Assembly (NCBI RefSeq): GCF_003050865.1
Contig: NZ_QAOK01000002.1
Span: 124,001-188,000, forward strand
From: Nitrosospira multiformis
Lineage (GTDB): Bacteria > Pseudomonadota > Gammaproteobacteria > Burkholderiales > Nitrosomonadaceae
Length of the DNA stretch: 64,000 bases
Reading direction: 5' to 3'
How positions within the stretch are numbered: the first letter of the stretch is position 1; every line of letters begins with the position of its first letter. The notes under the pieces are model-generated. The model worked only from the letters and a program-made list of their open reading frames with translations, did no database searches and had not been told where the DNA came from. The translations under genes and the position numbers were made by a program. Positions 15,986 through 31,148 of this stretch are shown here, piece by piece.

Positions 15986-16215
15986 ACTGGACCTCTTGAA
16001 AGGGAATTCCTGCTCGTCTTTTCCGGGAACTCATGGGCAAACGGGAACGCCGGTCCTGCTCTCTCCCGTTCGTTTGTACTTGCCCGGCCACTCATTATAG
16101 TTGAATAACGTATCCAGCCAAATTCGACCAGGTACGCCCACTGATTTTCTTCCTGCATTTCTTCTGCTGTGAGCGAGAATGCGCGTAGCAAAGTTCCATT
16201 TCCATTTATTTGCAC

Positions 16216-17205
16216 TACACTGATTACATGAATCCACTCGCCTTTTCCATTCTCCGGCTGCTGAGCGATAATGAATTTCATTCAGGTCCGGCTATTGCCG
16301 AAGCCTTGGGGGTTTCCCGCGCCAGCGTATCGAACGCACTCCGCGACGTGGATGAAGCCGGATTGACCATCCATAAAATCAAGGGGCGTGGCTACCGCCT
16401 GCTCGACCAGGTGCAATGGCTGGAACGAAATACCATTCTTGACCATCTCGGCGATCAGGCAGACAAGTTCAATCTGGAAATACTCGATACGATCGATTCC
16501 ACAAACAGCCTTTTACTGCATGAGGCGGACAACCGGTTGAGCCTGGGTGAAGGGCTCATTCATGCGGTAGCAGCCGAGCTGCAAACGAAGGGGCGTGGGC
16601 GAAGAGGACGGCAATGGCACTCTGGTCTGGGAGCCGGTCTCGCGTTTTCCGTGCTATGGCGGTTTCAGCAAAGCGCAAGCTTCCTTTCGGGTTTGAGCCT
16701 CGCCATAGGAGTTGCAATAGTACGTGCGCTCGAATCCTCGGGGACACAAGGAGCTGTACTCAAATGGCCAAACGATGTCCTGTTCAATTTCTGTAAACTG
16801 GCAGGCATACTGATAGAACTGCATGGCGATATGCTCGGTCCCACCGTCGCTGTAATCGGCGTAGGCATGAACCTGAAGTTGTCCGACAGCATTCAGGCGC
16901 GGATAGACCAGGGCGCAACGGATATTTTTTCCATCAGTGGAGAAATGCCGGATCGCAATAAATTGCTGGCTGAATTGTTGCTGAATATTGCTCGAGTATT
17001 GAGAGAATTTGAGCAGTCAGGTTTTACGCCATTCAAGGAGGAATGGGTGGATCGCCATGTATGTGAAGGCAAAGCAGTCACCCTCAAGCTACCTGACGGG
17101 TCGGGCCAGGAGGGGCTGGTGCACGGGGTATCGGATAGCGGGTCGCTGTTGCTGCAAACGTCACTGGGTCTTCGCAGTTTCAGCGGCGGCGAGATATCGC
17201 TGCGC
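16216..17205 (+). repeat. birA direct repeat, left copy
   Basis: Begins at tacactgattac, 12 bases before the birA ATG, and ends at gatatcgctgcgc near the birA stop. Matches 33131-34120 without indels; I counted about 22 substitutions, 14 of them in the last 200 bases. Confidence 0.93.
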
Positions 17206-17232
17206 TTGCGAAGGTGGGGGCGGCCTGAATAG
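16228..17232 (+). CDS. birA: Biotin protein ligase / biotin operon repressor, copy 1
   Basis: A 334-residue bifunctional BirA: it makes biotinyl-AMP, transfers biotin to the acetyl-CoA carboxylase carrier protein, and has a DNA-binding head. The N-terminal winged helix contains GPAIAEALGVSRASVSNAL; the ligase domain has the nucleotide and biotin-binding loop TKGRGRRGRQWHSG and KWPNDV; a C-terminal SH3-like domain follows. Homologues start at MNPLAF, so ATG 16228 is used rather than the TTG at 16210. The last eight residues (LRRWGRPE) differ from copy 2, showing that its 3' end comes from the element. It retains the original chromosomal upstream region, divergent from glnS. Confidence 0.95.
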   Translation: MNPLAFSILRLLSDNEFHSGPAIAEALGVSRASVSNALRDVDEAGLTIHKIKGRGYRLLDQVQWLERNTILDHLGDQADKFNLEILDTIDSTNSLLLHEADNRLSLGEGLIHAVAAELQTKGRGRRGRQWHSGLGAGLAFSVLWRFQQSASFLSGLSLAIGVAIVRALESSGTQGAVLKWPNDVLFNFCKLAGILIELHGDMLGPTVAVIGVGMNLKLSDSIQARIDQGATDIFSISGEMPDRNKLLAELLLNIARVLREFEQSGFTPFKEEWVDRHVCEGKAVTLKLPDGSGQEGLVHGVSDSGSLLLQTSLGLRSFSGGEISLRLRRWGRPE

Positions 17233-17341
17233 TGGTAGCTTTATCACCATCAGCGAGGCAATGAACGAATGGAAGGCAATCGGGAATCTTCCAATTTAGC
17301 CATCGAATGAATGGGCAAATGATGGAGGAAAGCATGTAAGT

Positions 17342-17366
17342 CGCCTCATGTAGGTCGCTCATGAGG
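17342..17366. repeat. Inverted repeat between birA copy 1 and the avidin-like gene
   Basis: Arms gcctcatg and catgaggc lie nine bases apart in the convergent gap. It could act as a weak terminator for either side, but no T-run follows. Confidence 0.35.
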
Positions 17367-17432
17367 CTGAACCGAGCACAAATCAGACATCAGAGGGGTA
17401 TAGGTTAGTGAAAGAGCGAACTTTGTAGCTGA

Positions 17433-17804
17433 TTAGGCTTTACGGGTAAAGATATCTGCCTGAACATGAAAAGCTTGCCAAAGGTCACTTGGATATTCTT
17501 CAGCCAAGTTATTATCCGGGTTCTTTCTAATTGTTTTGCTTGAAACATATTGCCATAATGTGTGGATTTTATTATCCAACTCTAGGCGGCCAACCCAGCA
17601 ACAAATGCAATCAATTTCCCCATACGACACGGTAAAGCCGATGAGATTTTCTCTTACATATCCCTTTAATTCGTAAGCTTGTGAGGCATCCGGTTTTCCG
17701 ACAGCTGTCTTATATTGACCTTCAATAAGTCCATTAAGGGGATCAATATGAGAGATATTAAGAATGGATCCGTGTTGATTTTCCCAGATTCCTAAAAAGT
17801 TCAT
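17433..17804 (-). CDS. Avidin/streptavidin-family biotin-binding protein, no signal peptide
   Basis: A 123-residue protein that aligns along its length with streptavidin and avidin. W7-E-N-Q-H-G-S13 matches the first strand; G29-Q-Y-K-T-A-V-G36 matches the second, then GFTV (56-59), C-W70-V-G, HTLW84, W109 and D117-I-F-T-R. Streptavidin ligands N23, S27, Y43, S45, W92, W108, W120 and D128 correspond to N9, S13, Y31, T33, W70, W84, W109 and D117. W79 becomes Y61, and S88 and T90 become Cys66 and Cys68. Biotin binding is inferred. Unlike known secreted avidins it has no leader, so it would stay in the cytoplasm. AGGAGG precedes ATG 17804. It is A+T-rich, convergent with birA copy 1, and follows a small repeat protein gene. 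Confidence 0.82.
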   Translation of the reverse strand: MNFLGIWENQHGSILNISHIDPLNGLIEGQYKTAVGKPDASQAYELKGYVRENLIGFTVSYGEIDCICCWVGRLELDNKIHTLWQYVSSKTIRKNPDNNLAEEYPSDLWQAFHVQADIFTRKA

Positions 17805-17864
17805 CACTCCTCCTGATTAATCAAGAAGACATTTAAAAAAATAAAAATTAAGGATGTTTCTATT

Positions 17865-18122
17865 TTAATGAGGTATTGGAGATAGGCAGCCTAATTCATT
17901 CAATAACTTTCCATCTTTGAAAGAAAGACGCCCTCCATCCAAATATGGGGAGTATATCTGCCCTGTTATTTTGTTTTCCTCAAAGAATTGAATAATTTTT
18001 TCTCGATCTACTCCGATTTTTCCTTCGAAATGAAGGTATTCATTTGTGTTTTCGGAAACCTTCACTTTTCCTGTAAGGTTGTTTTCTGTAAAGAATTTTG
18101 AGATATTTTTTATGTCTGCCAT
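17865..18122 (-). CDS. Small internally duplicated protein upstream of the avidin-like gene
   Basis: An 85-residue protein of unknown family. It consists of two similar halves of about 30 residues: ISKFFTENNLTGKVKV with YLHFEGK, then IIQFFEENKITGQIYS with RLSFKDGK. Each half looks like a helix followed by beta strands. No signal peptide. GGG and AAGG lie upstream of the ATG. It precedes the avidin-like gene by 60 bases on the same strand, so a two-gene unit is plausible, and shares its low G+C content. A role alongside the avidin-like protein is only a guess from position. Confidence 0.6.
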   Translation of the reverse strand: MADIKNISKFFTENNLTGKVKVSENTNEYLHFEGKIGVDREKIIQFFEENKITGQIYSPYLDGGRLSFKDGKLLNELGCLSPIPH

Positions 18123-18230
18123 TGCCCTTTTATCCTTCTTGTTAGGGGGCTATGAATAACAGAAAGAAGTTCCTTCAGGCAATTAAAAAATTCTTTTCAG
18201 TATTAGAAGCATAAACGATTTTTAGCATGA

Positions 18231-19862
18231 TTACTCGGGGAGTGGATAAGATTCAGTTGTACATGATGCTGGCATGAGAGCATTCGTGCTGAATCTGCTA
18301 TCGAATGAAAAAACTGAAGGTGATGGATTATCAAAATCCAAAATAGTCAGGTTAACGGTAGCAACCGTATTTGCTGTGCTCACCTCAAGACTGGGTTGTT
18401 TGTGAATAAAGGTTGTTTGATTCCGCCTTTCAGAAAAAGATGTGGCGGTCCATGGAGCCGTAGGAACTTCCCATAAGATGTCAGTGATTGGAGCGGAAAC
18501 AAATATTTCATTTCCCCGAACGATGCTTACATGAGTTTCGCTTAATTCAACATGCGCTCCTGGAGCTGATCCGTTCCTTACGCTTCCACCTCTAGCAGTA
18601 CAGGTCTTATTCGAAATCAACCGAATCCAATCCAATATTCTGGTTTTCATATCAATTATCAAGGGACGACTGGTGAAAGTAGAGGTGACCCCTTGGCGAA
18701 CAGGATTGCTTTTCCAGAAAAGCTCTACGTTCCCAGTTGGCCACTCTCGTCTTTCTCTTATATTGAGGGTGTTTCCAGCAGAGTCATAAAGGTAAATTCC
18801 GCCTCCATCGTAAGACTGGCCAAATTTATAGTAGCTATTCTCTGGAAATGTGACTTCTTTAAAACACCTGCTTCCTGTAATCTCTCCGGAAGAACCAAAA
18901 GTCATAAGTCCATCCATCTTGAGATCAGGGCCACATATCCTGGCTCCCGCACGAGATCCTTCTAGAAGTTTTGGAAGATACCGATAAAATGGAGCGGGAG
19001 TGGGTGGGGGACAGGGAGCGGCGGGTTCCAGTTTTGAAAATTGCTCATCAATGGAAGTAATGATTTTCTTTTCCGATAGCTTCCCGATATCAAGATAAGC
19101 TTCTGTAAAATTGTGAGAAAAGTTTCGATTTTTCCATTCCGGCGGGGGATATCCGTTGGCAACATTTCCCGATAGAACGGACGAATCAGTTAACTTGAGA
19201 GCTAGGATTACCATATCTTCGACAAGAGTGACATAGGCTGATCTGTCAGCGGGGTCCACTCTCGAATAGGGGACAGCAACCCCCACATTTCCTACAGCGC
19301 TCACCTCTGATGGATTCATCAGGTTAACAATGGAACTTGCCCATAAATTCCCCTGCGAGTGGGGCACCAAGGTAACGATATTCCCCTGATCGATATAAGC
19401 GTCAAGGGTGGAACGCATGTAATTCAGAGTTGCTGCATCTGGGTTATAGCCTTTTACTGATAAATTTGCCCAGTTTATTAGATCATCCTTAATGCCGTCT
19501 GGAAGAGGCTCTAGTCCAGCTAGACCCCTTAAAATAAGGGAGATATTCAGTCCATGCCGCTGCATTGCTGTTTCGAGAAAATCAGCCAGCCCACCGATGC
19601 CATAGAGCACATCCTTTGCTGATGGATTATGCATGTAATAAAAATTGGGGCGAGTCTGTTGCGAACGGCTGAGCCCAAGCCAAGCAAATCTAAGCTTAAG
19701 CATATTGTTTTCGGCCTGAATCTTATTATTTAATACGCCATTTATTGTGAGAATAATGCGTGGAGCTTGGCATCCCTCTGCCCAGGCGTAATCGTTTAGG
19801 AAAAACAATAAGAGGGGAAAAATAGCCGCTCTTTTAAAAAGATAGCTAACTTTACTTGGCAT
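18231..19862 (-). CDS. Secreted serine hydrolase-like protein (lipase-type elbow)
   Basis: A 543-residue protein with an N-terminal signal peptide (FKRAAIFPLLLFFLNDYAWA, cleavage after AWA). Around residue 170 the sequence VTLVPHSQGNLWA matches the nucleophile elbow of alpha/beta hydrolases of the lipase or PGAP1-like kind, in a domain that starts IILTINGVLNN. The C-terminal half is beta-rich and unrecognised. A start four codons upstream (19874) is possible. It is the last gene of a three-gene minus-strand run with the calcium-motif and PEP-CTERM proteins, gaps of 9 and about 30 bases. Substrate unknown. Confidence 0.7.
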   Translation of the reverse strand: MPSKVSYLFKRAAIFPLLLFFLNDYAWAEGCQAPRIILTINGVLNNKIQAENNMLKLRFAWLGLSRSQQTRPNFYYMHNPSAKDVLYGIGGLADFLETAMQRHGLNISLILRGLAGLEPLPDGIKDDLINWANLSVKGYNPDAATLNYMRSTLDAYIDQGNIVTLVPHSQGNLWASSIVNLMNPSEVSAVGNVGVAVPYSRVDPADRSAYVTLVEDMVILALKLTDSSVLSGNVANGYPPPEWKNRNFSHNFTEAYLDIGKLSEKKIITSIDEQFSKLEPAAPCPPPTPAPFYRYLPKLLEGSRAGARICGPDLKMDGLMTFGSSGEITGSRCFKEVTFPENSYYKFGQSYDGGGIYLYDSAGNTLNIRERREWPTGNVELFWKSNPVRQGVTSTFTSRPLIIDMKTRILDWIRLISNKTCTARGGSVRNGSAPGAHVELSETHVSIVRGNEIFVSAPITDILWEVPTAPWTATSFSERRNQTTFIHKQPSLEVSTANTVATVNLTILDFDNPSPSVFSFDSRFSTNALMPASCTTESYPLPE

Positions 19863-19894
19863 GATTTTTATCAATGTAGTAAAGACAGGATCCT

Positions 19895-20749
19895 TTAATT
19901 TGGGAGGCTGCCAGGATCAAAATCACAGGATTCCTCTAAATCATAAGGAAGTGAAAAAATTTGTCCCGCAAGCTGACTATCAAAAGCTGCATAGGCGCGA
20001 TAGCGTTGAATTGTGTTCAAGAAAGCTGCATGTAATTTCTGATTTGCAGTAATACTGGGATCTATGCCCATAATGAAAGCTAGGCAACGTATAGCCCGAT
20101 CTGATTGATCCGCAATTACCCTCGCCGCTTGGAGATTATTAGGTGGAACAGTAAGCATTGCTTGATAGGACTTTGCTATGTTGGTCAAGGCTAGCCGCGT
20201 TTTTTCCGATGACGGATATTCAAGAGCAATATATCGTTGAATATCGTCCCGCACCCCATCTCCGTCTGAATCGATACCTAATAAGGTAGCCTCGCCCGCA
20301 GAGCCAGGATCAGGAGGTAAACTGCCGGCTTTGGGAAGCTCAGCATCAACCTCAAACGATACGTTGAATTTGACCTGTTTTGGGTTACTGAACTTGAGAA
20401 GCGCGCGAACCGATTGTCCAGAAGTCAAGCTGCCATTTGGCAGGGGAATCTGAATATAAGGATGATTTTCCTCGTTTATACCTGCCGCATTTGCAAGCGA
20501 TACCTGGGGCGAGTCGATCGATACGATCAGTTTGAGAGGTTCCAAAAGGGGTGTGGAACTTTCGTTTGAGACGGTAACCGTGGTATCGAAAGTACCGGTT
20601 GAACGGTTCAGTACCAGCCCGCTTTTCTGAACCGTGACTGAACCGGTGACATCCGCGGCATCAGTGTTGTCAGCCAGACTCAGTAGTCCGATCCCGATAA
20701 AGCATATTGCCAGCGCAGGAATCGCCGTAATCCACCGATGCCGCTTCAT
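19895..20749 (-). CDS. Secreted protein with calcium-binding thrombospondin type 3-like motif
   Basis: A 284-residue protein with a signal peptide (AIPALAICFIGIGLLSLADN, cut near TDAA). The first half is an Ig-like beta domain (VTVQKSGLVLNRSTGTFDTT); residues about 160-170 read GIDSDGDGVRDDIQRYI, the calcium-binding DxDxDG motif of thrombospondin type 3 repeats. The C-terminal part is helical and contains cysteines. AGGAG precedes the ATG. It lies 9 bases after the PEP-CTERM gene and just before the hydrolase gene, so the three are likely cotranscribed and secreted together. Confidence 0.65.
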   Translation of the reverse strand: MKRHRWITAIPALAICFIGIGLLSLADNTDAADVTGSVTVQKSGLVLNRSTGTFDTTVTVSNESSTPLLEPLKLIVSIDSPQVSLANAAGINEENHPYIQIPLPNGSLTSGQSVRALLKFSNPKQVKFNVSFEVDAELPKAGSLPPDPGSAGEATLLGIDSDGDGVRDDIQRYIALEYPSSEKTRLALTNIAKSYQAMLTVPPNNLQAARVIADQSDRAIRCLAFIMGIDPSITANQKLHAAFLNTIQRYRAYAAFDSQLAGQIFSLPYDLEESCDFDPGSLPN

Positions 20750-20758
20750 GCATTTCTC

Positions 20759-21382
20759 CTACACTGCTTGTTTGTTGTGTTTCTTATATAGTGTTCCGAC
20801 GCCAAAAAGCGCAAGCCCGGTGATGAAAAGCGTAACCGGATAGGGTTCAGGAATGGGGCTGGCTATTACCGAAAAACCATCGCCCCAATAGATTTCAAGC
20901 CTATTGTCTGACCCGATATTAAGAAGGAAAAGCGCATTTGCGCCTGTGGGATCATTAGTGGTTACAAGCGGCAAACCGGAAGAATCGAGCAAAAAGAAAG
21001 AAAATGCGTCCGGCAGGGAACCTGAATCGGGTAAGTTTTCTGTGCTGTTGAAAACAAAAGAGGTTAGCGATCCCAAGGTTACATTCTGTAAAACTTCATT
21101 GAAGAACTGCGAATCTGAAAAGGTAACAGTGGCTGGGAGGGTGCCTGTTACATTCCCGGTTACAGTTGCAATGCCTAGTGTGCCATCCGTTGAGAAATCG
21201 GAGATGGAAACTGTGTTAAGTGGCGTTCCCCCGTCAATGAAGTCGAATGCGAACTGGCCAGATGTCCCGGAAAGTGGAGCAGTATCGATAGAGAATAAAA
21301 GTGGCGGTGCGGCCCAGGCGGAATGGGCAAGAAAGAGGGAAGAAATAATAATTTGATGCAGATACCCAGTGACGCTTCTCAT
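20759..21382 (-). CDS. PEP-CTERM sorting-domain protein
   Basis: A 207-residue exported protein. An N-terminal signal peptide (SLFLAHSAWAA) is followed by a beta-rich domain, then the tripartite PEP-CTERM tail: PIPEP, the hydrophobic helix VTLFITGLALFGVGTL and the basic end YKKHNKQ. Such tails are recognised by exosortase, which cuts at the PEP site and releases the protein to the surface or matrix of EPS-forming Gram-negative bacteria. This implies exosortase elsewhere in the genome, as is usual in Nitrosospira. AGGAG precedes the ATG. First gene of the three-gene secreted cluster. Confidence 0.85.
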   Translation of the reverse strand: MRSVTGYLHQIIISSLFLAHSAWAAPPLLFSIDTAPLSGTSGQFAFDFIDGGTPLNTVSISDFSTDGTLGIATVTGNVTGTLPATVTFSDSQFFNEVLQNVTLGSLTSFVFNSTENLPDSGSLPDAFSFFLLDSSGLPLVTTNDPTGANALFLLNIGSDNRLEIYWGDGFSVIASPIPEPYPVTLFITGLALFGVGTLYKKHNKQAV

Positions 21383-21512
21383 GAGCTCTCCTGATTCTGC
21401 GAAGGAAGTATTCTGATTATATTGATGAGTTTCAGTAAGTCAACTTTATTGAAAAAAGCATGTAGAAATGGGTACTTAGAGGAAGCTGCCAATATCAATT
21501 GCAACAATGGAG

Positions 21513-21737
21513 ATGAAATTGACAGATTCCCAGACCGCAGATTCTCTGAGATTTTTCCAGCCGAGAGAAAGTAAGCCCTGCGAGCTTAGCGAGTTCGACA
21601 AGCTGGAAGCCGACCGCGAAAGGCTCCTGATCCTGACCGGCATGGCGGCTCCCCTGTATGACCGGACCTTGCGCCAGCAGATCACCGACGCCCTCATTGC
21701 GACCGTGCGGGACATGGAAGCCAGAATGCGGCAATAG
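21513..21737 (+). CDS. Small hypothetical plasmid protein
   Basis: A 74-residue charged protein, MKLTDSQTADSLRFF at the start and TVRDMEARMRQ at the end. Not recognised. The alternative start two codons upstream (21507) is possible. It is followed by a GC-rich hairpin at 21748-21774 and its composition matches the mobilisation region. It probably belongs to the plasmid backbone. Confidence 0.45.
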   Translation: MKLTDSQTADSLRFFQPRESKPCELSEFDKLEADRERLLILTGMAAPLYDRTLRQQITDALIATVRDMEARMRQ

Positions 21738-21747
21738 TCGTAAAGAC

Positions 21748-21774
21748 AAAGGCCAGCTTTGAGGGCTGGCCTTT
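21748..21774 (+). terminator. GC-rich hairpin after the small plasmid gene
   Basis: Arms aaaggccagc and gctggccttt are exact complements. It lies 11 bases past the stop. The T-run is short (ttt), so termination may be weak. Confidence 0.6.
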
Positions 21775-21862
21775 GCGGTGATTTCTCACCCTTGGCGGTC
21801 ATCGCATCCCTGCTGTACCGCCGCATCAGAATACAGGCCGCTTCGCCCGGAATCAACTGCCG

Positions 21863-21919
21863 TTCACCCTTGTTCGTATCCTAGCAGGGAGGTGTCGGAG
21901 GGGCGGCAATGAGCCCCTC
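21863..21919 (+). repeat. Backbone inverted-repeat site, copy A
   Basis: Contains ttcacccttgttcgtatcct and, 17 bases on, aggggcggcaatgagcccct. Both blocks recur in inverted orientation at 29523-29591 with a near-identical spacing region. It lies upstream of the candidate oriT. Confidence 0.7.
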
Positions 21920-22044
21920 TGACTGCCGACCGTAGGGCGGCAGTTTCTCCCGACGCGCCGCGCCGGAAAAACCTCGTGCATAACTCCCTTTGGTGCAGTT
22001 GACCTAGCGTCTGAGTTGAGTGGTACAATTGTAGGTGCAGGGTA

Positions 22045-22101
22045 GCAAGCTATGTTTTTGGTTCCCAAAAACGCTTGCAAGGGGGAGAGACACTCCCCCT
22101 T
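22045..22101. other. oriT: Candidate oriT: two stem-loops upstream of mobC
   Basis: First an inverted repeat, gcaagc-tat-gtttttgg then ccaaaaac-gcttgc with a three-base loop (22045-22078), then a second, aggggga and tccccct (22080-22101). Stem-loops beside a nic site just upstream of the relaxase operon are typical for transfer origins of mobilisable plasmids. The nic position cannot be named from sequence alone. Confidence 0.55.
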
Positions 22102-22228
22102 TGAACCCCCTTTGTACGGCCATTGCCTGGCCGTCCCGGTGCCTTCCACCCTCCCGGAGGCACCGGGAGAAAACGGCGTGCTTGCGTCCCATTGCGTACC
22201 GTCCTGAATAACCGTCAGTCCAGTCCTT

Positions 22229-22561
22229 ATGGCGCGACCAAAAAAACAGCAAACGGAGTCCCGGAGCGAGCGGCTGAATCTTCGCCTGCTCCCGGACGAG
22301 CGGGCCACGATAGAGGCCCGCGCTGCCGCTTCTGGCCTCACCCCCACCGACTACGCTCGCCGCCGCGTCCTTGGAGGCAAGCTTGCCGTTGCTCCGCGCC
22401 GGGCCGACCCCGCCCTGGTGCTGGCCGTGAACCGGGCGGGCGTCAACCTCAACCAGATTGCCCGTGCCCTGAACAGCGGCCTCGGCCATAGCCCGCACGA
22501 GTTGAGCGAGACTCTTGCCCGGCTCAATCAGTTGCTGGACCGGTTGCAGGACGTGGAATGA
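22229..22561 (+). CDS. mobC: Relaxosome accessory protein MobC
   Basis: A 110-residue protein resembling MobC/MbeC-type accessory factors, which bind oriT and help the relaxase open the DNA. The start MARPKKQQTESRSERLNLRL with LLPDERATIEARAAASGLT is a ribbon-helix-helix-like DNA-binding section, and NRAGVNLNQIARALNSG near residues 70-87 is the conserved MobC core. Its stop overlaps the relaxase start by four bases (ATGA), giving translational coupling. The candidate oriT lies about 130 bases upstream. Confidence 0.85.
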   Translation: MARPKKQQTESRSERLNLRLLPDERATIEARAAASGLTPTDYARRRVLGGKLAVAPRRADPALVLAVNRAGVNLNQIARALNSGLGHSPHELSETLARLNQLLDRLQDVE

Positions 22562-24060
22562 CGCCGAACGCCGCGAAGAAAGGTCGCAGCTTCAAGGGCG
22601 CGGTGGCCTACATCATTCACGACCCGGACGGAGCGAAAACAGCCGAGCGGGTACTGTTTACAGAAACACGCAACCTTCGCACGGACGACCCGGAGAAGGC
22701 GGCCAAGGTCATGGCCTATACCGCGCAGCATGCCGCCGAGCTGAAGGAAGCGGCAGGCATCAAGGCCACGGGGCGCAAGACAGACGCGCCGGTCTATCAC
22801 CTGTCCTTGTCCTGGGTGCCAGGCGAAAAGCCCACTCAGACCGAAATGATGGAGGCCGGGACTGCCATACTGGAAAAGCTTGGATATGGGGAGCATGAAG
22901 CCGTTTTTGCCGCGCACGGCGACAAGGCGCACATGCATTTGCATATCATCGTCAGCCGCATCCATCCGGTCACCGGCAAGACCCACAACCCGAAGGACGA
23001 CCAGAATATTCTGCAAGCCTGGGGGCACGAGTATGACAAGGCGCGAGGAATGGAACATCACAGCCCGGAGCGTGCCGCGAAATACGAGAAAGACCCGGAA
23101 AAGAAGGCTGAATACCAGCGTATGGCCGAAGAGGCGCGGCAGCGCAAGGGAGCAGCCAACGGCAACAGCAAACCCCGGGCGGACTGGGAGGCGGCAATTG
23201 GTGCCACCCATCCGAAAAGTCGGAAATATCAGGAGATCAAGGCCGAGTACGCGGAGCGCGTCAAAACCCTCTCGGACGAGGGCCGCTCCCTGGCGTTGCG
23301 CCACAAAGAGGAATGGGCCGAGCTGAAGACCGCGCAGCGGGGGGAGCTTAAAGATCTGGCAAACGATTTCCGGCGCAGCCATGCAACCGAAATCCGGGAG
23401 TTCATGCGGGGCTTGCGTAACGAGCGGGCGGAATTCCGGCGCGAAGAAAAATCCCGTCCGGAACGGCTGGAGCGCGATGCCGGGATTTCCGCGCATACCC
23501 CGGTCGGCCAGCAGGGGGCGGAACATCGGGACAATCTGGCCCGGCTGTTCAATGACCAGGTGTTAAAGCATTCTCGCCCCGCCGCCTTGGCGCGGGAACA
23601 GAAACAGAAAAAGAAGGAATTTTTCGAGCGGCTGGAATTGGGTTACCCCCTGCCGGGCCGCGAACAGAACGGACAGCAGAATATGCATTCCAGGTTCCGC
23701 GAGGCCGCAGGGCCTGATGGACGCCAGCCCAGTTACCGGCAGGAGCGGGCTGCATTGCTGGCCGAGCAGAAAGAAGAACGGGCCGAACTCAAGGAGCAGC
23801 AGCAGGCCGAGCGGGCCGCCCTTCAGCAGAAATGGGCCGAGATGAACGACGACCGGTCGAAGGCATGGGAAGCCTACCGCGAACGCCGGGCCGCGCAGGA
23901 GAAGGAGGAGTCCAGGGATACGGAGCGGGGCAGGACAAGAGGCGATACGGAAAGAGTGGCAGAGTCCGGGCGGATAGATTCAGGCAGGGCCGATTCTGGA
24001 CGTTTCGAGGGACGCAATGATGGCGGAGGGCGCGAGCGGGGCCGGGATTTCGGCGGCTAG
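22558..24060 (+). CDS. mobA: MobA-type relaxase (MOBP)
   Basis: A 500-residue relaxase that nicks oriT and stays covalently attached to the transferred strand. The N-terminal nuclease domain has a candidate tyrosine in FKGAVAYIIHD and the metal-binding triad motif H120-G-D-K-A-H125-M-H127-L-H129, followed by IVSRIHPVTG. After residue 200 the protein is highly charged and coiled (EERAELKEQQQAERAALQQ), as in mobilisation relaxases without a primase domain. G+C-rich, unlike the cargo on its left. Together with MobC and the coupling protein it would allow transfer by a helper plasmid's channel. Confidence 0.9.
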   Translation: MTPNAAKKGRSFKGAVAYIIHDPDGAKTAERVLFTETRNLRTDDPEKAAKVMAYTAQHAAELKEAAGIKATGRKTDAPVYHLSLSWVPGEKPTQTEMMEAGTAILEKLGYGEHEAVFAAHGDKAHMHLHIIVSRIHPVTGKTHNPKDDQNILQAWGHEYDKARGMEHHSPERAAKYEKDPEKKAEYQRMAEEARQRKGAANGNSKPRADWEAAIGATHPKSRKYQEIKAEYAERVKTLSDEGRSLALRHKEEWAELKTAQRGELKDLANDFRRSHATEIREFMRGLRNERAEFRREEKSRPERLERDAGISAHTPVGQQGAEHRDNLARLFNDQVLKHSRPAALAREQKQKKKEFFERLELGYPLPGREQNGQQNMHSRFREAAGPDGRQPSYRQERAALLAEQKEERAELKEQQQAERAALQQKWAEMNDDRSKAWEAYRERRAAQEKEESRDTERGRTRGDTERVAESGRIDSGRADSGRFEGRNDGGGRERGRDFGG

Positions 24061-24155
24061 AACCCAATCCGGGTATGCATATAGGGTATACCCCGATTGC
24101 TCTAGCTCATCTTTGAGGGCATAATATTCCTTAATCGACACCCAAGGGAAAAGCC

Positions 24156-24470
24156 GTGAAATCGCTAAACTTAGCGGCCCTGAGTATCGCGGTATTCATC
24201 TTTGCACTGATAGCGGCAGAGATGATCGTGCCCCTCGACTGGAAACCCTCCATTCTTCTGCGGCAAAGCACCGGCGAGATTCCCTCCAATCCCAAACGGA
24301 CCTTCATGGACGAGGTTGGCCGCATGCGCCAGGCCAAAGCCGAGGCCGCAGAGCTGCACCAGCAAGCCACCGACCTTGCCGCTTCTGTTAACAGAATCGA
24401 GAATGCACGGGTTCAGCTCAATGACCGCATCCGGCAGAAGGTGACCGAACTCAATCGATACCGCCCCTGA
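24156..24470 (+). CDS. Small membrane protein with coiled coil
   Basis: A 104-residue protein with a GTG start (AAGGGAAAAG upstream). One membrane helix (LAALSIAVFIFALIAAEMIV), then PLDWKPS, then a predicted coiled coil (MRQAKAEAAELHQQATDLAA) that would face the periplasm. The AE-x-I-x-P-x-x-WKPS segment recurs in the next gene, so the two are likely diverged duplicates. Position between relaxase and coupling protein suggests a transfer-related role, but no family is recognised. Confidence 0.6.
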   Translation: MKSLNLAALSIAVFIFALIAAEMIVPLDWKPSILLRQSTGEIPSNPKRTFMDEVGRMRQAKAEAAELHQQATDLAASVNRIENARVQLNDRIRQKVTELNRYRP

Positions 24471-24476
24471 TTCATC

Positions 24477-25262
24477 ATGAGCCTGCTACTTGACCCCGAC
24501 AGACTGGGAAGCGAAGCCCGCACAGAATCCAAAAAGCTTTCCGACCAGTTCCACTATTTAAGCTCTCGACCTAAGCCAGAGGAAAAACGGAACTGGGCGT
24601 CATCCCTGAAAGTTTCCGGCCTGTCCGTGGCGGCGCTCGCGGTTTTAATGATCGGGGCCGAGCATATTGCGCCTGCCGGGTGGAAGCCCTCGACCTTCAT
24701 TGGCGCTTTTGGGGGCAAGGTGCAGACGGTCGAAATTCTGGAAAGCATCGATGCTGTACGGGCGCTAACCGCTGTGCAGGAGCAGGAAAGAGCGCGGGGC
24801 ATGCAGGAGGTCGAGCAGCTCCGCGCCGCCCAGGAACGATTGACGCTTGCCTACCGGGTGGAATTCGAACGCGGCAGCGAGCTAATCCGGGCCGGGGCCA
24901 ATGCGCAGCAGCTTCTCGCCAGCGTGATCGAGGCCAAGATGCGGGGGATGGATGGACGGTTCAGAGCGGCAAGCGTCAAGGACAATCTCGGAATCTGGTG
25001 CGACTTTGGTAATATCGCCTTTCAGACCCCGGATTGCGGGCCAGACTTGCGGGCAAGCGCACGGGCAGACCGGGACGCCATGCAAACCGAATTGCTTGAA
25101 AGCTGGATATCCGCCCAGGAGCGGATTGTCGGGATAGCGCAGAGCTGGGCGGCCGGTCTGCTATCGCCCCAGGACCTGATAGCCGAAATGCAGCAAAACA
25201 CTCCCCATCTCTACGCCGCACCGCGCGAGCCTATCCCGCCTAATCCATACCGCACTCCCTGA
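24477..25262 (+). CDS. Membrane-anchored coiled-coil protein of the mobilisation region
   Basis: A 261-residue protein of unknown family starting six bases after the previous stop. A membrane helix (VSGLSVAALAVLMIGAEHI) is followed by APAGWKPSTF, matching the preceding protein, and then a long helical, coiled-coil region (QEQERARGMQEVEQLRAAQE). Two cysteines flank DFGNIAFQTPD. The C-terminus is proline-rich (REPIPPNPYRTP). Its 3' end overlaps the coupling protein gene end-to-end by 23 bases on opposite strands. It may link coupling protein and envelope, by position only. Confidence 0.6.
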   Translation: MSLLLDPDRLGSEARTESKKLSDQFHYLSSRPKPEEKRNWASSLKVSGLSVAALAVLMIGAEHIAPAGWKPSTFIGAFGGKVQTVEILESIDAVRALTAVQEQERARGMQEVEQLRAAQERLTLAYRVEFERGSELIRAGANAQQLLASVIEAKMRGMDGRFRAASVKDNLGIWCDFGNIAFQTPDCGPDLRASARADRDAMQTELLESWISAQERIVGIAQSWAAGLLSPQDLIAEMQQNTPHLYAAPREPIPPNPYRTP

Positions 25263-27147
25263 CCAGGGCGTTAAAGGCGTTCGCCGGTCCCCGGAACGGT
25301 TCCGCCGGGCGTTGCCAGAGGGGCCAGGGAACAAGGCCCTTTTCCGAATCCTTGCGATAGTCCGGCAGGGGTGTGAACAGCCCGGCGAACCAGGGCGAAG
25401 TGTCATAATTTATCCTCAGGCACCACACGGGCCGCCTCCCCTTGATGAGCAGCAGGGACGCGCCGCTTTCGCGGGAGAACTGCAAGGCGATTTCATCGGG
25501 GCGCAGCAGCGGCACCGTATGCAAGCCTTCGCTTGCATTCATGGACTGGGAAGCGCTGCCTGTCCGGCTCTGTTTGTCCGCGACGGAATGGACGACGAGC
25601 TGGGCCGCGCTTGCCTTGTAATCCCGCGAGAAGAGGCCGCCGACCATACGCCCCATGACGTCAGCGGGGGCCGGTTCACCATAGCCTTCGTTACGGTTTT
25701 CCGACTGGGAGGCCACCACCCGGACGACTTCAAACTCCCCGAGGGATTTGGAGGCGTATTCGAGGGTTTCCCGGTCGGAGGCCCCGAAAATCTGCACAAT
25801 TCCAGCATTGGCAAGGAAGGTCTGCCAGTTTGAAGGGTACAGGGACTTGAGCTGGTTCAGGTCTTGCAGAATGGCCCACAGTTTCACGCCAAAGCCCGCT
25901 GCGTAGCCTGCCGCCTTTTCTATGGCAGGCATAGGGCCGAGAGTGAAAAACTCTTCCAGGAGGAACAGGACGGGCGCACCGCAGGCCGGAGGCTTCAGGT
26001 TGCGCTGCATCCGTTCCAGGAATATCCCAATCATGAGGCGCAGCCATCGCCCATGAGTGCCCATGCGCTCAGCCGGGAGGCAAAGATAGATGGTTGCCCC
26101 CTTCTCCGCTTCTTTCAGGATATCCGGCCGGAACGTGGCCCCTGCCCCGGACAATGTATCCCGGAAACGAGGGCCGAGGGTATCGAGGAAGGCGGTATTG
26201 CGCCGGGCGGTCGAGAGGATGGAGCCGCGCTCATTCTGTCCCGTGCCGGCGAGGCTCTCCCCTGCCCCTGCGATCACCCCGTTCAAGGCTTCGTTTCTCC
26301 GCATGGTGTCGAGCAGATACCAGAAGGGTGTGGGACAGTCTTCCTTGAAATCCGGGTCTTCGGCACAGGCCGCGTTCCACCCTGCCCTGTCCCCTTGCAT
26401 GAGGAAATCGCGGAAATCGAAAAGGGTTGGATTCTTCCGGGTTGTTATGAGGTGCAGTATTAGTCCCTTGACGAAATTACGGGCGGTTTCGTCCCAGTGG
26501 GAATCCCTCGGGTCGTGCGACACCACCAGACCTTCGGCCAGCAGCGCGGCATCATCGACCACAAGCGGGGAATCCGCATCGAGCAGCGAAAGCGGATTAA
26601 GCCCGGCCCGCAGGGCGTCCGGCACGTCGGCCACGCCGAAAGGGTCGAGCACATAGACATCCTGCCCCATCCCTTCTGTCCATTCATCCCCAGGGCCGCG
26701 CCGTGCAGCCGTTAGGCTCGCATTTTCGCCCTTCGGGTCGAGGACGACCACGGAGCCTGGATACAGGCATAAATTGGGAATAATGGAGCTACGCCCCTTC
26801 CCCGATCGTGCCCCGGCGACTGTGACCATGTGCCGGTCGTCATCGAGGCCGAGCGGAACGCAATCGGCAACTTGGGCAGTCCGCAGCACATCTTCCAATC
26901 TTTCCACCAGGGCGGCGCGATGCAGAGGCGGTAGGTTGGATTCTTCGATTTTGGTTATGACCTTAGCGGCAGCCGAGTGGAATTCGGCGAGCTTTTTCCA
27001 ATTGTCCGAGTAAGGGATGGCCCCGAGGAACAGGGATGCACCACCTCTGAAGGCCAAACGTTCAACAGCATGCGGAGTTTCCCAATCGGCAGATGAGAGC
27101 GGCACATTATGGTTGCCCTGAAAGGTGCCACGAGGAAGAGAGAGCAT
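25240..27147 (-). CDS. VirD4/TraG-type coupling protein
   Basis: A 635-residue type IV coupling protein, the hexameric ATPase that hands the relaxase-DNA complex to a conjugation channel. Walker A GARSGKGRSS is near residues 112-121, followed by VVVLDPKGEN; Walker B is VLFLLEEFFTLG, then WAILQDLNQLKSLYPSNWQT as in TraG/VirD4 proteins. There is a weak hydrophobic stretch (GASLFLGAI) but no clear pair of N-terminal membrane helices, so it looks like a short or soluble variant. No other type IV secretion gene is present in the element, so a helper channel would be needed. Opposite strand to the mob genes. Confidence 0.88.
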   Translation of the reverse strand: MLSLPRGTFQGNHNVPLSSADWETPHAVERLAFRGGASLFLGAIPYSDNWKKLAEFHSAAAKVITKIEESNLPPLHRAALVERLEDVLRTAQVADCVPLGLDDDRHMVTVAGARSGKGRSSIIPNLCLYPGSVVVLDPKGENASLTAARRGPGDEWTEGMGQDVYVLDPFGVADVPDALRAGLNPLSLLDADSPLVVDDAALLAEGLVVSHDPRDSHWDETARNFVKGLILHLITTRKNPTLFDFRDFLMQGDRAGWNAACAEDPDFKEDCPTPFWYLLDTMRRNEALNGVIAGAGESLAGTGQNERGSILSTARRNTAFLDTLGPRFRDTLSGAGATFRPDILKEAEKGATIYLCLPAERMGTHGRWLRLMIGIFLERMQRNLKPPACGAPVLFLLEEFFTLGPMPAIEKAAGYAAGFGVKLWAILQDLNQLKSLYPSNWQTFLANAGIVQIFGASDRETLEYASKSLGEFEVVRVVASQSENRNEGYGEPAPADVMGRMVGGLFSRDYKASAAQLVVHSVADKQSRTGSASQSMNASEGLHTVPLLRPDEIALQFSRESGASLLLIKGRRPVWCLRINYDTSPWFAGLFTPLPDYRKDSEKGLVPWPLWQRPAEPFRGPANAFNALVRECGMD

Positions 27148-27223
27148 GATTATTTAAAGGCTGTTTTATTTTTACGTAAAGTCATTATCCCATGCCATTC
27201 GTATGTTCTTTTATTTTTGGAAC

Positions 27224-27252
27224 TTGACACCTCCCCTCATTCTGGCATGATT
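27224..27252 (+). promoter_or_regulatory. Candidate promoter of parA overlapping CATG repeats
   Basis: A consensus -35 ttgaca at 27224-27229 is followed 17 bases later by a poor -10 (atgatt) that lies in the first CATG repeats. The overlap would let a repeat-binding protein repress parA. Confidence 0.4.
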
Positions 27253-27329
27253 GCATGAGATCATAAAAACATGTTTGCATGCTATCAATTTTGCATGAAA
27301 ACATGAAAACATAGGAGCATGATTGCATG
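27246..27329 (+). repeat. CATG-rich repeat cluster upstream of parA (candidate parS/operator)
   Basis: Eight CATG tetramers occur in 84 bases, in units such as gcatgattgcatg and aaaacatgtttgcatg. Clusters of the same kind lie at the end of parA and after the next gene. Dense repeats flanking a parA locus usually form the centromere-like site and autoregulatory operator. Confidence 0.65.
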
Positions 27330-27983
27330 CAAACGATTGTTATCAACTCGCAGAAAGGCGGCAGCGGTAAAACAACGCTCTGTGCCCATCTGGCTGTTCA
27401 GGCCGAGCTTTTGGGCGATGGGCCAATCTTCCTGATCGATACGGACCCTCAAGGGACGTTGAGTACATGGCATGAGAAGCGGGAGGCCGAAGTTCCACAA
27501 CGTGCTGATGTTCCTCTGGCTGGCCTCGAAGCGGGTTTGCAGCTATTGCGACAGCATGAGGCCCAATACTGCATCATTGACACCGCGCCTACACGTACGG
27601 ATGAGAATGCCGCCCTCTTTCGTCTGGCTGATATTGTTCTTATGCCAATTCGGCCGAGTCCTTCGGATTTATGGGCAGCAGCGGCTACCGTTGCCCTTCT
27701 CAAGGAGGCCAACATCCCCTTTCTCTTTATCCTGACCCAGGCCAAAGCCAACGCCAGCATTACAGGACAGGCAGCGGCTGCCCTATCCCACTATGGGCCG
27801 GTTGCCGAGACTTTTATTGCAGACCGTATTTCCTATGCGTCTGCAATGACAGACGGGCGCACGGCTATCGAGCTTGCCAGCAAAGGCCCGGCAGCGATGG
27901 AAACTGCTTCACTCTGGAAAAACATAAAAGCATGTTTGCATGCAAGCATGCAAAACTCTGCAAAAGGAAAACGTTATGGCTAA
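27327..27983 (+). CDS. parA: ParA-family partition ATPase
   Basis: A 218-residue small ParA/MipZ-like ATPase (type Ib size, no N-terminal DNA-binding domain) that moves plasmid copies over the nucleoid. Deviant Walker A SQKGGSGKTT at residues 8-17, then FLIDTDPQGT and IIDTAPTRT. AGGAG lies 9 bases before the ATG. The stop overlaps the start of the following small gene by eight bases (ATGGCTAA), a usual layout for parA and its centromere-binding partner. CATG repeats surround the pair and even occupy codons near its 3' end. Confidence 0.9.
   Translation: MQTIVINSQKGGSGKTTLCAHLAVQAELLGDGPIFLIDTDPQGTLSTWHEKREAEVPQRADVPLAGLEAGLQLLRQHEAQYCIIDTAPTRTDENAALFRLADIVLMPIRPSPSDLWAAAATVALLKEANIPFLFILTQAKANASITGQAAAALSHYGPVAETFIADRISYASAMTDGRTAIELASKGPAAMETASLWKNIKACLHASMQNSAKGKRYG
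27932..27954 (+). repeat. CATG repeat cluster inside the 3' end of parA
   Basis: Three CATG tetramers in aagcatgtttgcatgcaagc and adjoining bases. They encode residues such as CLHASMQN, so the repeat overlaps coding sequence. Confidence 0.55.
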
Positions 27984-28239
27984 AGCTGTCATTCTTACCC
28001 CCGATGCGCTAGCCGCGCCACAGATAACACCCAAGGCAGCAACACCGCCCCGTAGTTCCGGACAGGCTAAGCAGCCGCAGAAGGCCGAGCCGAAGGTGGA
28101 GCAGATTCCCCTTCAGGTCCGTATTCCGCGAGAGGAGGCCAGAGCGATCAAGATTGCCGCTGCCGAACGGGAGCAAACCATAAGTGATTTCATGCTTACA
28201 TGTTTTCATGCTTACATGAAAGATGGCAAGCATGCATAA
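27976..28239 (+). CDS. Probable partition partner (ParB-like centromere-binding protein)
   Basis: An 87-residue protein starting MAKAVILTPDALAAP, with AGGA eight bases upstream. Proline- and lysine-rich linker in the middle, then VRIPREEARAIKIAAAEREQ and TISDFML, which looks like a ribbon-helix-helix DNA-binding unit. Overlaps parA by eight bases. Size, position and fold match the small non-ParB centromere-binding proteins that pair with type Ib ParA. Its last codons (MLTCFHAYMKDGKHA) are made from the CATG repeats. Confidence 0.65.
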   Translation: MAKAVILTPDALAAPQITPKAATPPRSSGQAKQPQKAEPKVEQIPLQVRIPREEARAIKIAAAEREQTISDFMLTCFHAYMKDGKHA

Positions 28240-28285
28240 ATAGAAACATGAAAGCATGCATACATGAAAACATGCTTATCTGCTA
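28188..28285 (+). repeat. CATG-rich repeat cluster after the partition genes
   Basis: Nine CATG tetramers in 98 bases (tacatgttttcatgcttaca and variants), beginning within the end of the small partition gene and running towards the replication gene. Forms the third cluster of the locus. Confidence 0.65.
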
Positions 28286-28327
28286 GCCAGGTTGCATAAT
28301 TACCTCCATCAGGGCAGGGTAGGGGGA

Positions 28328-29155
28328 ATGACCAAGAAAAACAAACCACTGGACGAAATGCTCGGCCGTATGAAAAAGAAGCTGGAAGAGCGAGAGCGGA
28401 ATGCCGTCGTTCAGCTTCCGCTATGGCCAGAGCCAAAGCGTGGCGCACCCAATAGCTTTATTCGTTCCGCCCTGTTTGCCGCAATTCAAAGTAAGGATCG
28501 CCAGTACATCAAGGAAGCGGTACTGGCAAGCCAGGACGGCATAACTGTGAAATTCACAGGAGAGCAGCTCAACCAGGCCGATCTTGACGTATGGGAAACC
28601 ATCGTTCACATGGCCCGCGATCAGCCCCTTGGCACATTTTGCAGTTTTACCGCTCATGGGCTTCTAAAAGCCATGGGTATGCCGACCGGCAACAGCCAGC
28701 ACAAGCAGCTCCATTCCACACTCTTGCGCCTTACCGCGTGTGCAGTCGAAGTAACTCACGAGGGGAAAACCTACTTTGGGCCGCTCATTAAATCCGGTGC
28801 GAAAGACGAGCTGACTCGTCATTACGGTATCGAACTGAACAAGGGCATCATCCGGCTCTTCGGCGAAAACCAGTGGACGGCTCTTGACTGGAAACAGCGG
28901 CAGGAATTGCGTGGGCAGCCTCTTGCCCAGGCCCTGCACGCTTTTTACAGCAGCCACCGAGAGCCGTTCGCAGTCAAGCTGGAAACCCTTCAGGCTTACA
29001 CGGGGAGCCGCAACAAGCAAACGGCTAGTTTCAAGCGCCAGGTGCGAACCGCTCTTGGTCAACTCGTCGGGGTGGGATTTCTCTCCTCATACGAATTCGA
29101 GGGCGACCTGGTGCGAGTCCAGCGAACCTCCACGCCTCTTGTAAAACGCGCCTAG
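28328..29155 (+). CDS. trfA: TrfA-like plasmid replication initiator
   Basis: A 275-residue initiator. The segment QLPLWPEPKRGAPNSFIRSA followed by LFAAIQ matches the conserved start of the TrfA core of IncP-type plasmids, and VWETIVHMARDQPLGT and FSAHGLLKAMG-like text follow (here FTAHGLLKAMG). Such proteins are paired winged-helix domains that bind iterons, open the origin and load the helicase. ATG 28328 with AGGGGG close by is used; an upstream TTG is less likely. The iteron array begins one base after its stop, so gene and origin form one replication module. Confidence 0.88.
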   Translation: MTKKNKPLDEMLGRMKKKLEERERNAVVQLPLWPEPKRGAPNSFIRSALFAAIQSKDRQYIKEAVLASQDGITVKFTGEQLNQADLDVWETIVHMARDQPLGTFCSFTAHGLLKAMGMPTGNSQHKQLHSTLLRLTACAVEVTHEGKTYFGPLIKSGAKDELTRHYGIELNKGIIRLFGENQWTALDWKQRQELRGQPLAQALHAFYSSHREPFAVKLETLQAYTGSRNKQTASFKRQVRTALGQLVGVGFLSSYEFEGDLVRVQRTSTPLVKRA

Positions 29156-29434
29156 CACGGCATTCGATGCACAAGGCAGAAGAGAGGAGGGCACGGCATT
29201 CGATGCACATCAACACGGCATCCGATGCATAAAGGCACGGCATTCGATGCACAAGGCACGGCATTCGATGCACACGAATCACGGCATTCGATGCACACGA
29301 ATCACGGCATTCGATGCATTTAGGGATTTCTAATATACTCTTAAAATCAAATACATAAACTCTTTCTCAGGAGATGCTAATCTTCTTTTAATCTTCTTTT
29401 AATATAGGGTAGAAAATGTGCATCGAATGCCGTG
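29156..29434 (+). other. oriV: Iteron-type replication origin (oriV)
   Basis: Seven direct copies of a 17-base unit, cacggcattcgatgcac, start at 29156, 29192, 29214, 29236, 29257, 29280 and 29303; all but the first gap are 21-23 bases, close to two helical turns. An inverted eighth copy lies at 29418-29434. Between them (29320-29415) is an A+T-rich stretch with a doubled atcttcttttaat, a likely melting region. Adjacent to the TrfA-like gene, this is the expected layout of an iteron-controlled origin. A hairpin ggcccccaaagggggcc follows at 29459-29475. Confidence 0.9.
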
Positions 29435-29522
29435 CCTTTTCGAAAAAGGCTCCATCGAGGCCCCCAAAGGGGGCCAGAACACCCCCCATAAAAAGAGTTC
29501 GCTAACGCTCACAACCTCTAAA

Positions 29523-29591
29523 AGGGGCTCATTGCCGCCCCTCTTTGCCCTTAAGGGCAAATTCACCCGCTAGGATACAAACAAGGGTGAA
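29523..29591 (-). repeat. Backbone inverted-repeat site, copy B
   Basis: The reverse complement of this stretch carries ttcacccttgtttgtatcct and aggggcggcaatgagcccct, the same two blocks as copy A at 21863-21919. It also contains a short palindrome tttgcccttaagggcaaa at 29544-29561. Sits between oriV and the toxin-antitoxin genes. Confidence 0.7.
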
Positions 29592-29628
29592 TCTTAAAAA
29601 TTAAGTCCTTATCACTGAGTGCTTTAAA

Positions 29629-29672
29629 TTTCTGTATGATTTCTGTATGATTTCTGTATCGTTTCTATACAG
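29629..29672 (+). promoter_or_regulatory. Tandem 11-base repeats upstream of parDE (candidate operator)
   Basis: Four adjoining 11-base units, tttctgtatga twice, then tttctgtatcg and tttctatacag. They end 12 bases before the parD start, where an antitoxin-toxin complex would repress its own operon. Confidence 0.55.
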
Positions 29673-29684
29673 AGAGAGCAAATA

Positions 29685-29969
29685 ATGCATATCGAATTGG
29701 CAGATGTTGATGAGAAATACATCAAGGACAGCGTCAGAAAGGGTTATTACCGGAGCGAAGCGGAAGCTGTCAGGGATGCAGTACGTAAAATGCGGGAGCA
29801 GGATGAAGCTAAAAGAATGAAGCTTCTGGATGCCTTGCAGCTAGGCATGGATGACATTGAAGCTGGCCAGGTAACTCCCTACACTCCGGATTTTCTTGAT
29901 CAATGCGAGACTCGCGCCCGTCAGAACATAGCTGCGGGAAGAAAGCCCAGTCCTGATGTCACACCCTAA
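29685..29969 (+). CDS. parD: ParD-like antitoxin
   Basis: A 94-residue type II antitoxin. The N-terminal ribbon-helix-helix (MHIELADVDEKYIKDSVRKG, then YYRSEAEAVRDAVRKM) binds the operator, and the acidic C-terminal part wraps the toxin. AGAGAG precedes the ATG. It overlaps the toxin gene by 14 bases. As a plasmid addiction module it would kill or stall cells that lose the element, and in the integrated state it stabilises the island. Confidence 0.88.
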   Translation: MHIELADVDEKYIKDSVRKGYYRSEAEAVRDAVRKMREQDEAKRMKLLDALQLGMDDIEAGQVTPYTPDFLDQCETRARQNIAAGRKPSPDVTP

Positions 29970-30258
29970 GTTTCGCCTGGTATTTGCTGATCTCGCCCAA
30001 CGCGACATTGACGACATTCTGGCTTACACCCTCGAAAACTGGGGAATGGAACAGCTTGAGAAATACAAGATCATGCTGGATACGGCCTTCAAAAAGATCG
30101 AGCAGCATCCTGATATAGGGATGTCCGGATTACTGCCCGGACTTCGGAGATTATCGGCCGGGAGCCATGTCATTTTCTACCGGGTTGATGATACGTCGAT
30201 CAGTGTTATCCGGATTCTGCATGGTCGCATGGATTATTTCCGTCATCTGGACGAATAG
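29956..30258 (+). CDS. parE: ParE-like toxin
   Basis: A 100-residue toxin of the RelE/ParE superfamily: FRLVFADLAQRDIDDILAYT at the start, then LDTAFKKIEQHPDIGMS and the closing strand HVIFYRVDDTSISVIRILHGRMD. ParE members poison DNA gyrase; RelE members cut ribosome-bound mRNA, and the pairing with a ParD-type antitoxin favours ParE. Overlaps parD by 14 bases and looks intact. Confidence 0.88.
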   Translation: MSHPKFRLVFADLAQRDIDDILAYTLENWGMEQLEKYKIMLDTAFKKIEQHPDIGMSGLLPGLRRLSAGSHVIFYRVDDTSISVIRILHGRMDYFRHLDE

Positions 30259-30616
30259 AAAGGGCAGCCCGCTCACATTCTGTCAGCGGGGCGGGCTCTA
30301 GACGCTGCGTGTCCCGGGCCTGTAGTCCCAGCCATCCAGTAACGATCCCTTCTGCATTATCAATGACAGCGTCGGCCATGCGGCCCACGCTGTTTCTTTT
30401 TTTCTCTAAGGCTTTCTAAGGGGCGCTGCCCCTCGCACCACGCAAGGGTAAAGCTTTGCCTCCCGGCAGGGTGTCCCCGGCCTTCCGCGCTGCGCTTGTG
30501 CAGGCGGGTGATCCCCCTCCCTGCCTTCCGCCCTTGCGCTCTGCTACCCCCGGTCTCGCCGACGGGCATGGGTGCATGTGCATGAGCACAGCACCCAGCT
30601 AAAAGGAGAGCAGACC
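30259..30616. other. Intergenic region between parE and the ardC remnant
   Basis: About 360 G+C-rich bases without a supported gene. A hairpin with arms agcccgc and gcgggct (from about 30265) follows parE, and a small palindrome aggggcgctgcccct lies at 30419-30433. A good aggag precedes the ardC start. Confidence 0.5.
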
Positions 30617-31140: not shown

Positions 31141-31148
31141 AAAGAGCA

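Follow-up and report, generated by a model that had tools for sequence, protein, structure and literature searches.

The window, a 64,000-nucleotide stretch of a contig from the soil ammonia oxidizer Nitrosospira multiformis, carries an avidin-family gene within plasmid sequence bounded by two copies of the biotin ligase gene birA. The features of the locus are as follows.

16228 to 17232, plus strand: birA copy A, intact, with the chromosomal 5' flank (glnS side)
17206 to 33120, no strand: integrated plasmid between the birA repeats, a relative of NC_007616
17433 to 17804, minus strand: avidin-family gene of 123 aa (ATG at 17804, stop at 17433), assigned by PF01382 and predicted fold
17865 to 18122, minus strand: 85-aa orphan open reading frame (ORF) immediately preceding the avidin gene; GC 0.34 (avidin 0.39)
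18231 to 19874, minus strand: 547-aa protein of unknown family, plasmid cargo, with a leader-like N terminus by eye
19895 to 20749, minus strand: 284-aa protein of unknown family, plasmid cargo
20759 to 21382, minus strand: PEP-CTERM protein, plasmid cargo (NF038129, E 3.1e-25, over the cut-off)
22229 to 22561, plus strand: MobC/NikA-like mobilisation protein
22558 to 24060, plus strand: relaxase of the MobA/VirD2 type (PF03432, E 7.3e-27)
25240 to 27147, minus strand: type IV secretion system coupling protein, TraG/TraD (PF02534, E 3.7e-52)
27327 to 27983, plus strand: ParA-type ATPase
28292 to 29155, plus strand: plasmid replication initiator TrfA (PF07042, E 3.1e-19)
29685 to 30258, plus strand: ParD/ParE toxin-antitoxin pair
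32564 to 33130, plus strand: serine resolvase of 188 aa, whose stop codon lies 12 bp before birA copy B
33143 to 34132, plus strand: birA copy B, intact, with a plasmid 5' flank (resolvase) and a chromosomal 3' flank (coaX)

The first-pass annotation had placed an avidin gene at 17433 to 17804. These coordinates were right, and the strand is the minus strand, on which the open reading frame spans 17433 to 17807 with its ATG at 17804; on the plus strand, the same frame is interrupted by stops. A strong ribosome site, caggaggagtgATG (AGGAGG; caggaggagtg), precedes the ATG, making the short start at 17804 likely. Promoter-like sites (2, against a mean of 3.1 in shuffles) were not above the shuffled sequences, and there were 2 terminator-like sites against 1.1.

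Assignment to the avidin family, also made at first reading, was upheld by the profile search: Pfam Avidin (PF01382) matched residues 3 to 92 with an E value of 1.1e-15 and 58.5 bits, against a curated cut-off of 24 bits. Searching the PDB with phmmer retrieved wilavidin (6.1e-6), xenavidin (9.1e-6), chicken biotin-binding protein (3.3e-4) and shwanavidin (0.003 to 0.006). The NCBIfam streptavidin model gave only 15.8 bits, far under its cut-off of 300, as expected since this model is an equivalog. The structure predicted from 11 sequences was the eight-stranded barrel that had been anticipated (mean pLDDT 86.9, pTM 0.76), and the best 50 PDB matches listed by Foldseek all belonged to the avidin family, with TM scores by query length of 0.64 to 0.72 for the predicted model. 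The profile match, the phmmer search, the predicted structure and the Foldseek comparison all point the same way, to a gene that encodes a protein with a predicted avidin fold. No viral relatives of this protein were found in two viral-contig scans and phage records, and the literature matches listed included no Nitrosospira avidin and no avidin-birA gene pair.

The biotin contacts named in the first-pass annotation were all found again. In the phmmer alignment to xenavidin, W7, N9, S13, Y31, T33, W70 and W84 were aligned, and a 31-row alignment identified N9, S13, Y31, T33, W70, W84, W109 and D117 as kept or conservative contacts, W109 and D117 being placed by the multiple alignment only. Their streptavidin equivalents, with numbers taken in part from that annotation, are presumably N23, S27, Y43, S45, W92, W108, W120 and D128. 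The three replacements listed there were likewise confirmed: in streptavidin numbers, W79 is replaced by Y61, S88 by C66 and T90 by C68, and these residues stand opposite Trp, Ser and Thr in xenavidin. Eight contact positions are therefore kept or conservative and three are replaced. A third cysteine, C69, which the earlier list did not contain, occupies the T91 position.

We then compared leader-bearing and leaderless avidins at the altered positions. Among the 10 leader-bearing rows, T90 and W92 were each present in 10, S88 in 9 and W79 in 7, compared to 3, 3, 3 and 4, respectively, of the 20 other leaderless rows, bearing in mind that the rows are related and the events hence not independent. 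Cysteine at position 90, as in the window's avidin, occurred in 9/20 of these other leaderless rows. Trp at 120 was more frequent in leaderless rows (10/20) than in leader rows (2/10, with 4 gapped), a count affected by the poor C-terminal alignment columns of the latter. For these counts, three parts of longer ORFs (L080, L081 and L084) were dropped from 34 rows, and one row (L086), whose start the script had put at a TTG lying 45 codons too far upstream, was set by hand to leaderless, its domain starting at an ATG with a ribosome site. In the leaderless clade related to the window's avidin, all 16 rows lacked Tyr at 43, Trp at 79 and Trp at 92. The altered W79, S88, T90 and W92 of most leaderless avidins would suggest, short of proof, weaker and reversible binding in the cytoplasm. 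The window's avidin is intermediate between the two types of pocket, being canonical at 43, 92 and 120 and altered at 79, 88 and 90.

The same replacements could mean that the avidin fold was kept and biotin binding lost, or another ligand bound, an alternative that we consider unlikely but with some chance of being right. In its favor are Tyr at 79 and Cys at 88 and 90 in the window's protein, the uniform losses at 43, 79 and 92 in the related clade, and the doubt expressed in a 2021 survey (PMC8033661) about biotin binding in Metavidins, a group not equated here with the leaderless clade. Against it, the equivalents of N23, S27, Y43, S45 (as Thr), W92, W108, W120 and D128 are all kept. A biotin binder of reduced or reversible affinity, as the Tyr at W79 and the Cys at S88 and T90 would allow, is the function that we regard as most likely.

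No signal peptide was detected in the avidin by our own hydrophobicity and start-codon rule (charge, hydrophobic stretch and start codon), which was used in place of SignalP, and since only four residues separate the upstream stop from the ATG, there is no space for a leader. The missing leader reported at first reading was thereby borne out, and by this rule the protein does not qualify as a secreted avidin. The implication that this is unusual was not supported. When the rule was applied to the 22 avidins sampled from the order and the phylum, it called 12 "no signal" and 10 "signal-like"; after correction of L086, 13 were leaderless and 9 signal-like, the 13 including the window's own avidin and the longer ORFs L080, L081 and L084. 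The survey puts the share of putative bacterial avidins with a signal peptide at about 50% and that of avidin genes held by mobile elements at more than 10% (PMC8033661). Bacterial avidins without a leader, and avidin genes on mobile elements, were thus both known before.

The window's genome was the only one with an avidin match in the genus sample (1/23 genomes) and in the class sample (1/369); the order sample gave 6/399 and the phylum sample 16/398, window's genome included in each case. A scan of genome contigs yielded 10 further relatives in Pseudomonadota, Actinomycetota and Bacteroidota, all leaderless by the rule, one of the two scan patterns having started at the initiator Met and thus favoring leaderless sequences. 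At one locus (L054, 3695 to 5130), a leaderless avidin ORF is followed by an ORF that resembles, by eye, a pepsin-type protease; fusions of avidin with pepsin-type proteases are reported in the survey (PMC8033661).

The location of the gene on a mobile element and next to birA, as first described, was confirmed. The "mobile replicon" proposed appears in the assembly as a plasmid integrated within a contig of 199 kb. The element carries the relaxase, MobC and replication initiator by which mobilizable plasmids are recognized, and an ArdC N-terminal fragment also lies between the birA copies. Comparison of the inter-birA region with a Nitrosospira multiformis plasmid gave 88.9% identity in three pieces amounting to 13% of the query. 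This plasmid 2 (NC_007616), typed in PLSDB as MOBP and conjugative, shares with the element its relaxase, MobC, ParA-type ATPase, replication and resolvase genes; an Abi gene and a restriction-modification pair set it apart from the element, and neither avidin nor birA was found in it. A contig of another genome of the genus (G004 C3) gave matches at plasmid 2 coordinates; this contig and the plasmid relative together point to a Nitrosospira host. In the window's own genome assembly, three other small contigs (G000 C48, C50 and C58, loci L058, L057 and L059) hold genes closely related to the resolvase gene and others that look, by eye, ParA-like.

Taken as one, the avidin gene and the 85-aa ORF have a GC content of 35.9%, against 57.9% for the plasmid backbone and 54% for the chromosome, and are therefore probably of outside origin. 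The 85-aa ORF contains two similar stretches, FFTENNLTGKV and FFEENKITGQI. No relatives of it were found in plasmids, viral contigs, Pfam, NCBIfam or PHROGs, nor in 300 genomes of the order except its own, and we rejected it as a recognizable avidin partner. The 547-aa protein had no Pfam or plasmid match and occurred, among 41 genomes, only in its own; the 284-aa protein had no match in Pfam, NCBIfam or PHROGs. The plasmid part also encodes a MORN-repeat protein (31262 to 32290; 9 stretches by Pfam, GC 0.45). Inverted repeats at 21863 to 21918 and 29523 to 29591 (21/21 and 24/26 bases), about 7.6 kb apart, bracket the mobilisation and replication genes, and both contain TATCCTAGC, which we take to resemble a relaxase nick site.

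We next turned to the two birA genes said to enclose the avidin gene. Both exist, and they are the only PF03099 matches in the genome, but the arrangement is asymmetric, with 200 bp between one copy and the avidin stop and 15.3 kb between the other and its start. The copies are identical at 975 of 1000 bases (16206 to 17205 versus 33121 to 34120), and their products differ at nine amino acids, with 12 silent base differences and 10 in changed codons. The divergence is uneven, identity being 98.3% up to 16800 and 94.1% from 16950, and over 178 bp (16781 to 16958) the copies do not differ at all. Both proteins are intact, and each contains the motifs KGRGRRG and KWPNDV, which we take to be functional in BirA.

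In three relatives (L010, L012 and L013), a single birA is continuous with both flanks. Copy A matches these from the glnS side through birA and ends at 17205, and copy B matches them from the birA start into coaX, at 91 to 94% identity. Plasmid sequence begins after 17205, and the last residues of copy A are therefore altered. By their 3' ends, copy A is nearer to L010 and L013 and copy B to L012, and the relatives thus single out neither copy as the chromosomal one. Two full birA genes were present only in the window's genome among the 23 of the genus, in a scan that was imperfect since two genomes (G004 and G015) gave no match; a second match in G010 was weak (21.5 bits). Among 72,556 plasmid records, 70 had BirA relatives, all below 60% identity, and 11 of the best 40 of these 70 matches listed were on chromosome-like records of more than 2 Mb. 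The repeats are consistent with, and would be best explained by, one crossover in which a birA on the plasmid recombined with that of the chromosome; the plasmid would then have had a birA prior to integration.

Two other origins of the repeats were weighed. A separate birA plasmid and the chromosome could have been joined in assembly via the shared birA. The assembly is a draft and the identical 178 bp could let paths cross, but the 199-kb contig runs on both sides and 25 differences over 1000 bp help to tell the copies apart, making an artefact rather improbable; in either case, the avidin gene would be genuine, as would the plasmid's birA. Alternatively, the serine recombinase could have integrated the element site-specifically at birA, a birA brought by the element restoring the gene; this would agree with a recombinase gene ending 12 bp ahead of copy B. 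We find it quite improbable, since the resolvase is small (188 aa) and has relatives in many genomes of the genus, and a near-identical gene of 1 kb far exceeds an attachment core; moreover, a captured birA-like gene was not seen behind any of the ten resolvase copies whose downstream DNA was compared.

The place of the avidin gene between birA genes had been read as a possible system, and we looked for birA at other avidin loci using copy B as a tblastn query and, in addition, a profile of BirA built from 20 Nitrosospira birA genes. None of 33 other loci had birA in 365 kb of sequence in all, the flanks reaching up to about 6 kb, some shorter at contig ends and one (L092) under 100 bases on one side. 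Two weak profile matches (E 0.005 and 0.008) covered the N-terminal winged-helix part only. We therefore rejected a conserved avidin-birA neighborhood, and the implied system gives way to plasmid integration as the best explanation of the two copies. The arrangement is an instructive trap: plasmid integration can create a suggestive neighborhood.

Taken together, we assign a probability of about 0.6 to a cytoplasmic avidin-fold protein, with reduced or reversible affinity for biotin, that is cargo of a plasmid integrated by crossover at birA. The protein would remain in the cytoplasm; its gene would be low-GC cargo of a Nitrosospira plasmid also bearing birA, whose crossover with the chromosomal birA would have integrated the plasmid with a birA on each side; and the avidin would hold free biotin, or release it on lysis. 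The protein may buffer or sequester biotin inside the cell, or compete with BirA, as first proposed. bioB was found in 23/23 genomes of the genus, 22 of them over the cut-off and including the host; biotin is thus probably made in the host cell, and a tight cytoplasmic trap would likely compete with BirA. For a cell that makes biotin, strong trapping in the cytoplasm should do harm, which counts against our reading, and a weaker, reversible binder is more comfortable given the altered contacts. Also counting against it are the three replaced contacts themselves with the further losses in the related leaderless clade, the relatives' failure to mark either birA copy as chromosomal, the search for a free plasmid carrying birA, which found none, and the draft state of the assembly (85 contigs).

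Release by lysis or a non-classical route, starving neighbors of biotin as proposed for secreted avidins, appears distinctly improbable: same-strand cargo looks exported (the PEP-CTERM protein and, by eye, the leader-like N terminus of the 547-aa protein), but no export signal was found in the avidin. A functional pair, in which the avidin depletes biotin, the extra BirA keeps charging AccB and plasmid carriers are favored, is very unlikely given the 0/33 other loci, the single avidin among the 23 genomes of the genus and birA capture as a recombination site, which explains the arrangement too, even if both BirA copies are intact with their common motifs, birA and avidin would be direct neighbors on the circular plasmid with converging 3' ends 200 bp apart, and no birA was found in plasmid 2 or the first 10 kb of G004 C4.

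In the sections considered here, the survey gives no account of how cells would tolerate a cytoplasmic biotin trap (PMC8033661). With its intermediate pocket and a host that probably makes its own biotin, the window's avidin is a handy test case of whether cytoplasmic avidins bind biotin more weakly. In the tree, it forms an isolated branch beside the 16-row leaderless clade, with support of 92/84, below the starred level. The tree required the leader label to change 2 times, against 8.8 in shuffles, and a single change was seen in only 16% of bootstrap trees; one leaderless row (L005) groups weakly with the leader rows, on a long branch. It is very doubtful, but conceivable, that leaderless avidins form a distinct cytoplasmic branch with a softened pocket (loss of W79, S88, T90 and often W92) holding biotin or another ligand reversibly, one of which the plasmid pairs with birA. 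A mobile element would then carry both a biotin store and a biotin-spending enzyme and could make its host dependent.

By tree path, the nearest row is the avidin of Chitinophaga rupis (L063). The survey refers to the description of this species for a terrestrial Bacteroidetes match, and L063 is probably among its avidins (PMC8033661). Like the window's avidin, this protein and those of Rhizobium, Labrys, Burkholderia, Catenulispora and Kutzneria have the avidin domain from or near residue 1 and no signal peptide by our rule. Y43, W92 and W120 are kept in the window's avidin, and positions 88, 90 and 91 are cysteines; in the leaderless clade, at most 35% identical to it, position 43 is Phe and position 92 is Phe or Tyr. 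The highest identity of all rows, 40%, was to L075, an avidin that is likewise leaderless but has Trp at both 79 and 92.

Two avidins of Burkholderia glumae and Rhizobium are plasmid-borne like the window's and about 31 to 34% identical to it, with no birA in the flanks examined. That of the Rhizobium plasmid (L052) is leaderless, like the window's. That of Burkholderia glumae (L051, 4905 to 5366), unlike it, has a leader; its gene immediately follows one for a type I polyketide synthase and is itself followed by genes for a transporter, a VOC-family protein and methylmalonyl-CoA mutase, an arrangement that recalls the pairing of streptavidin with biotin-pathway antibiotics. The solved avidins wilavidin, xenavidin, shwanavidin and bradavidin, about 22 to 30% identical in Foldseek alignments, have the fold and contact pattern in common with the window's avidin, in which Tyr, Cys and Cys stand at the positions of W79, S88 and T90.
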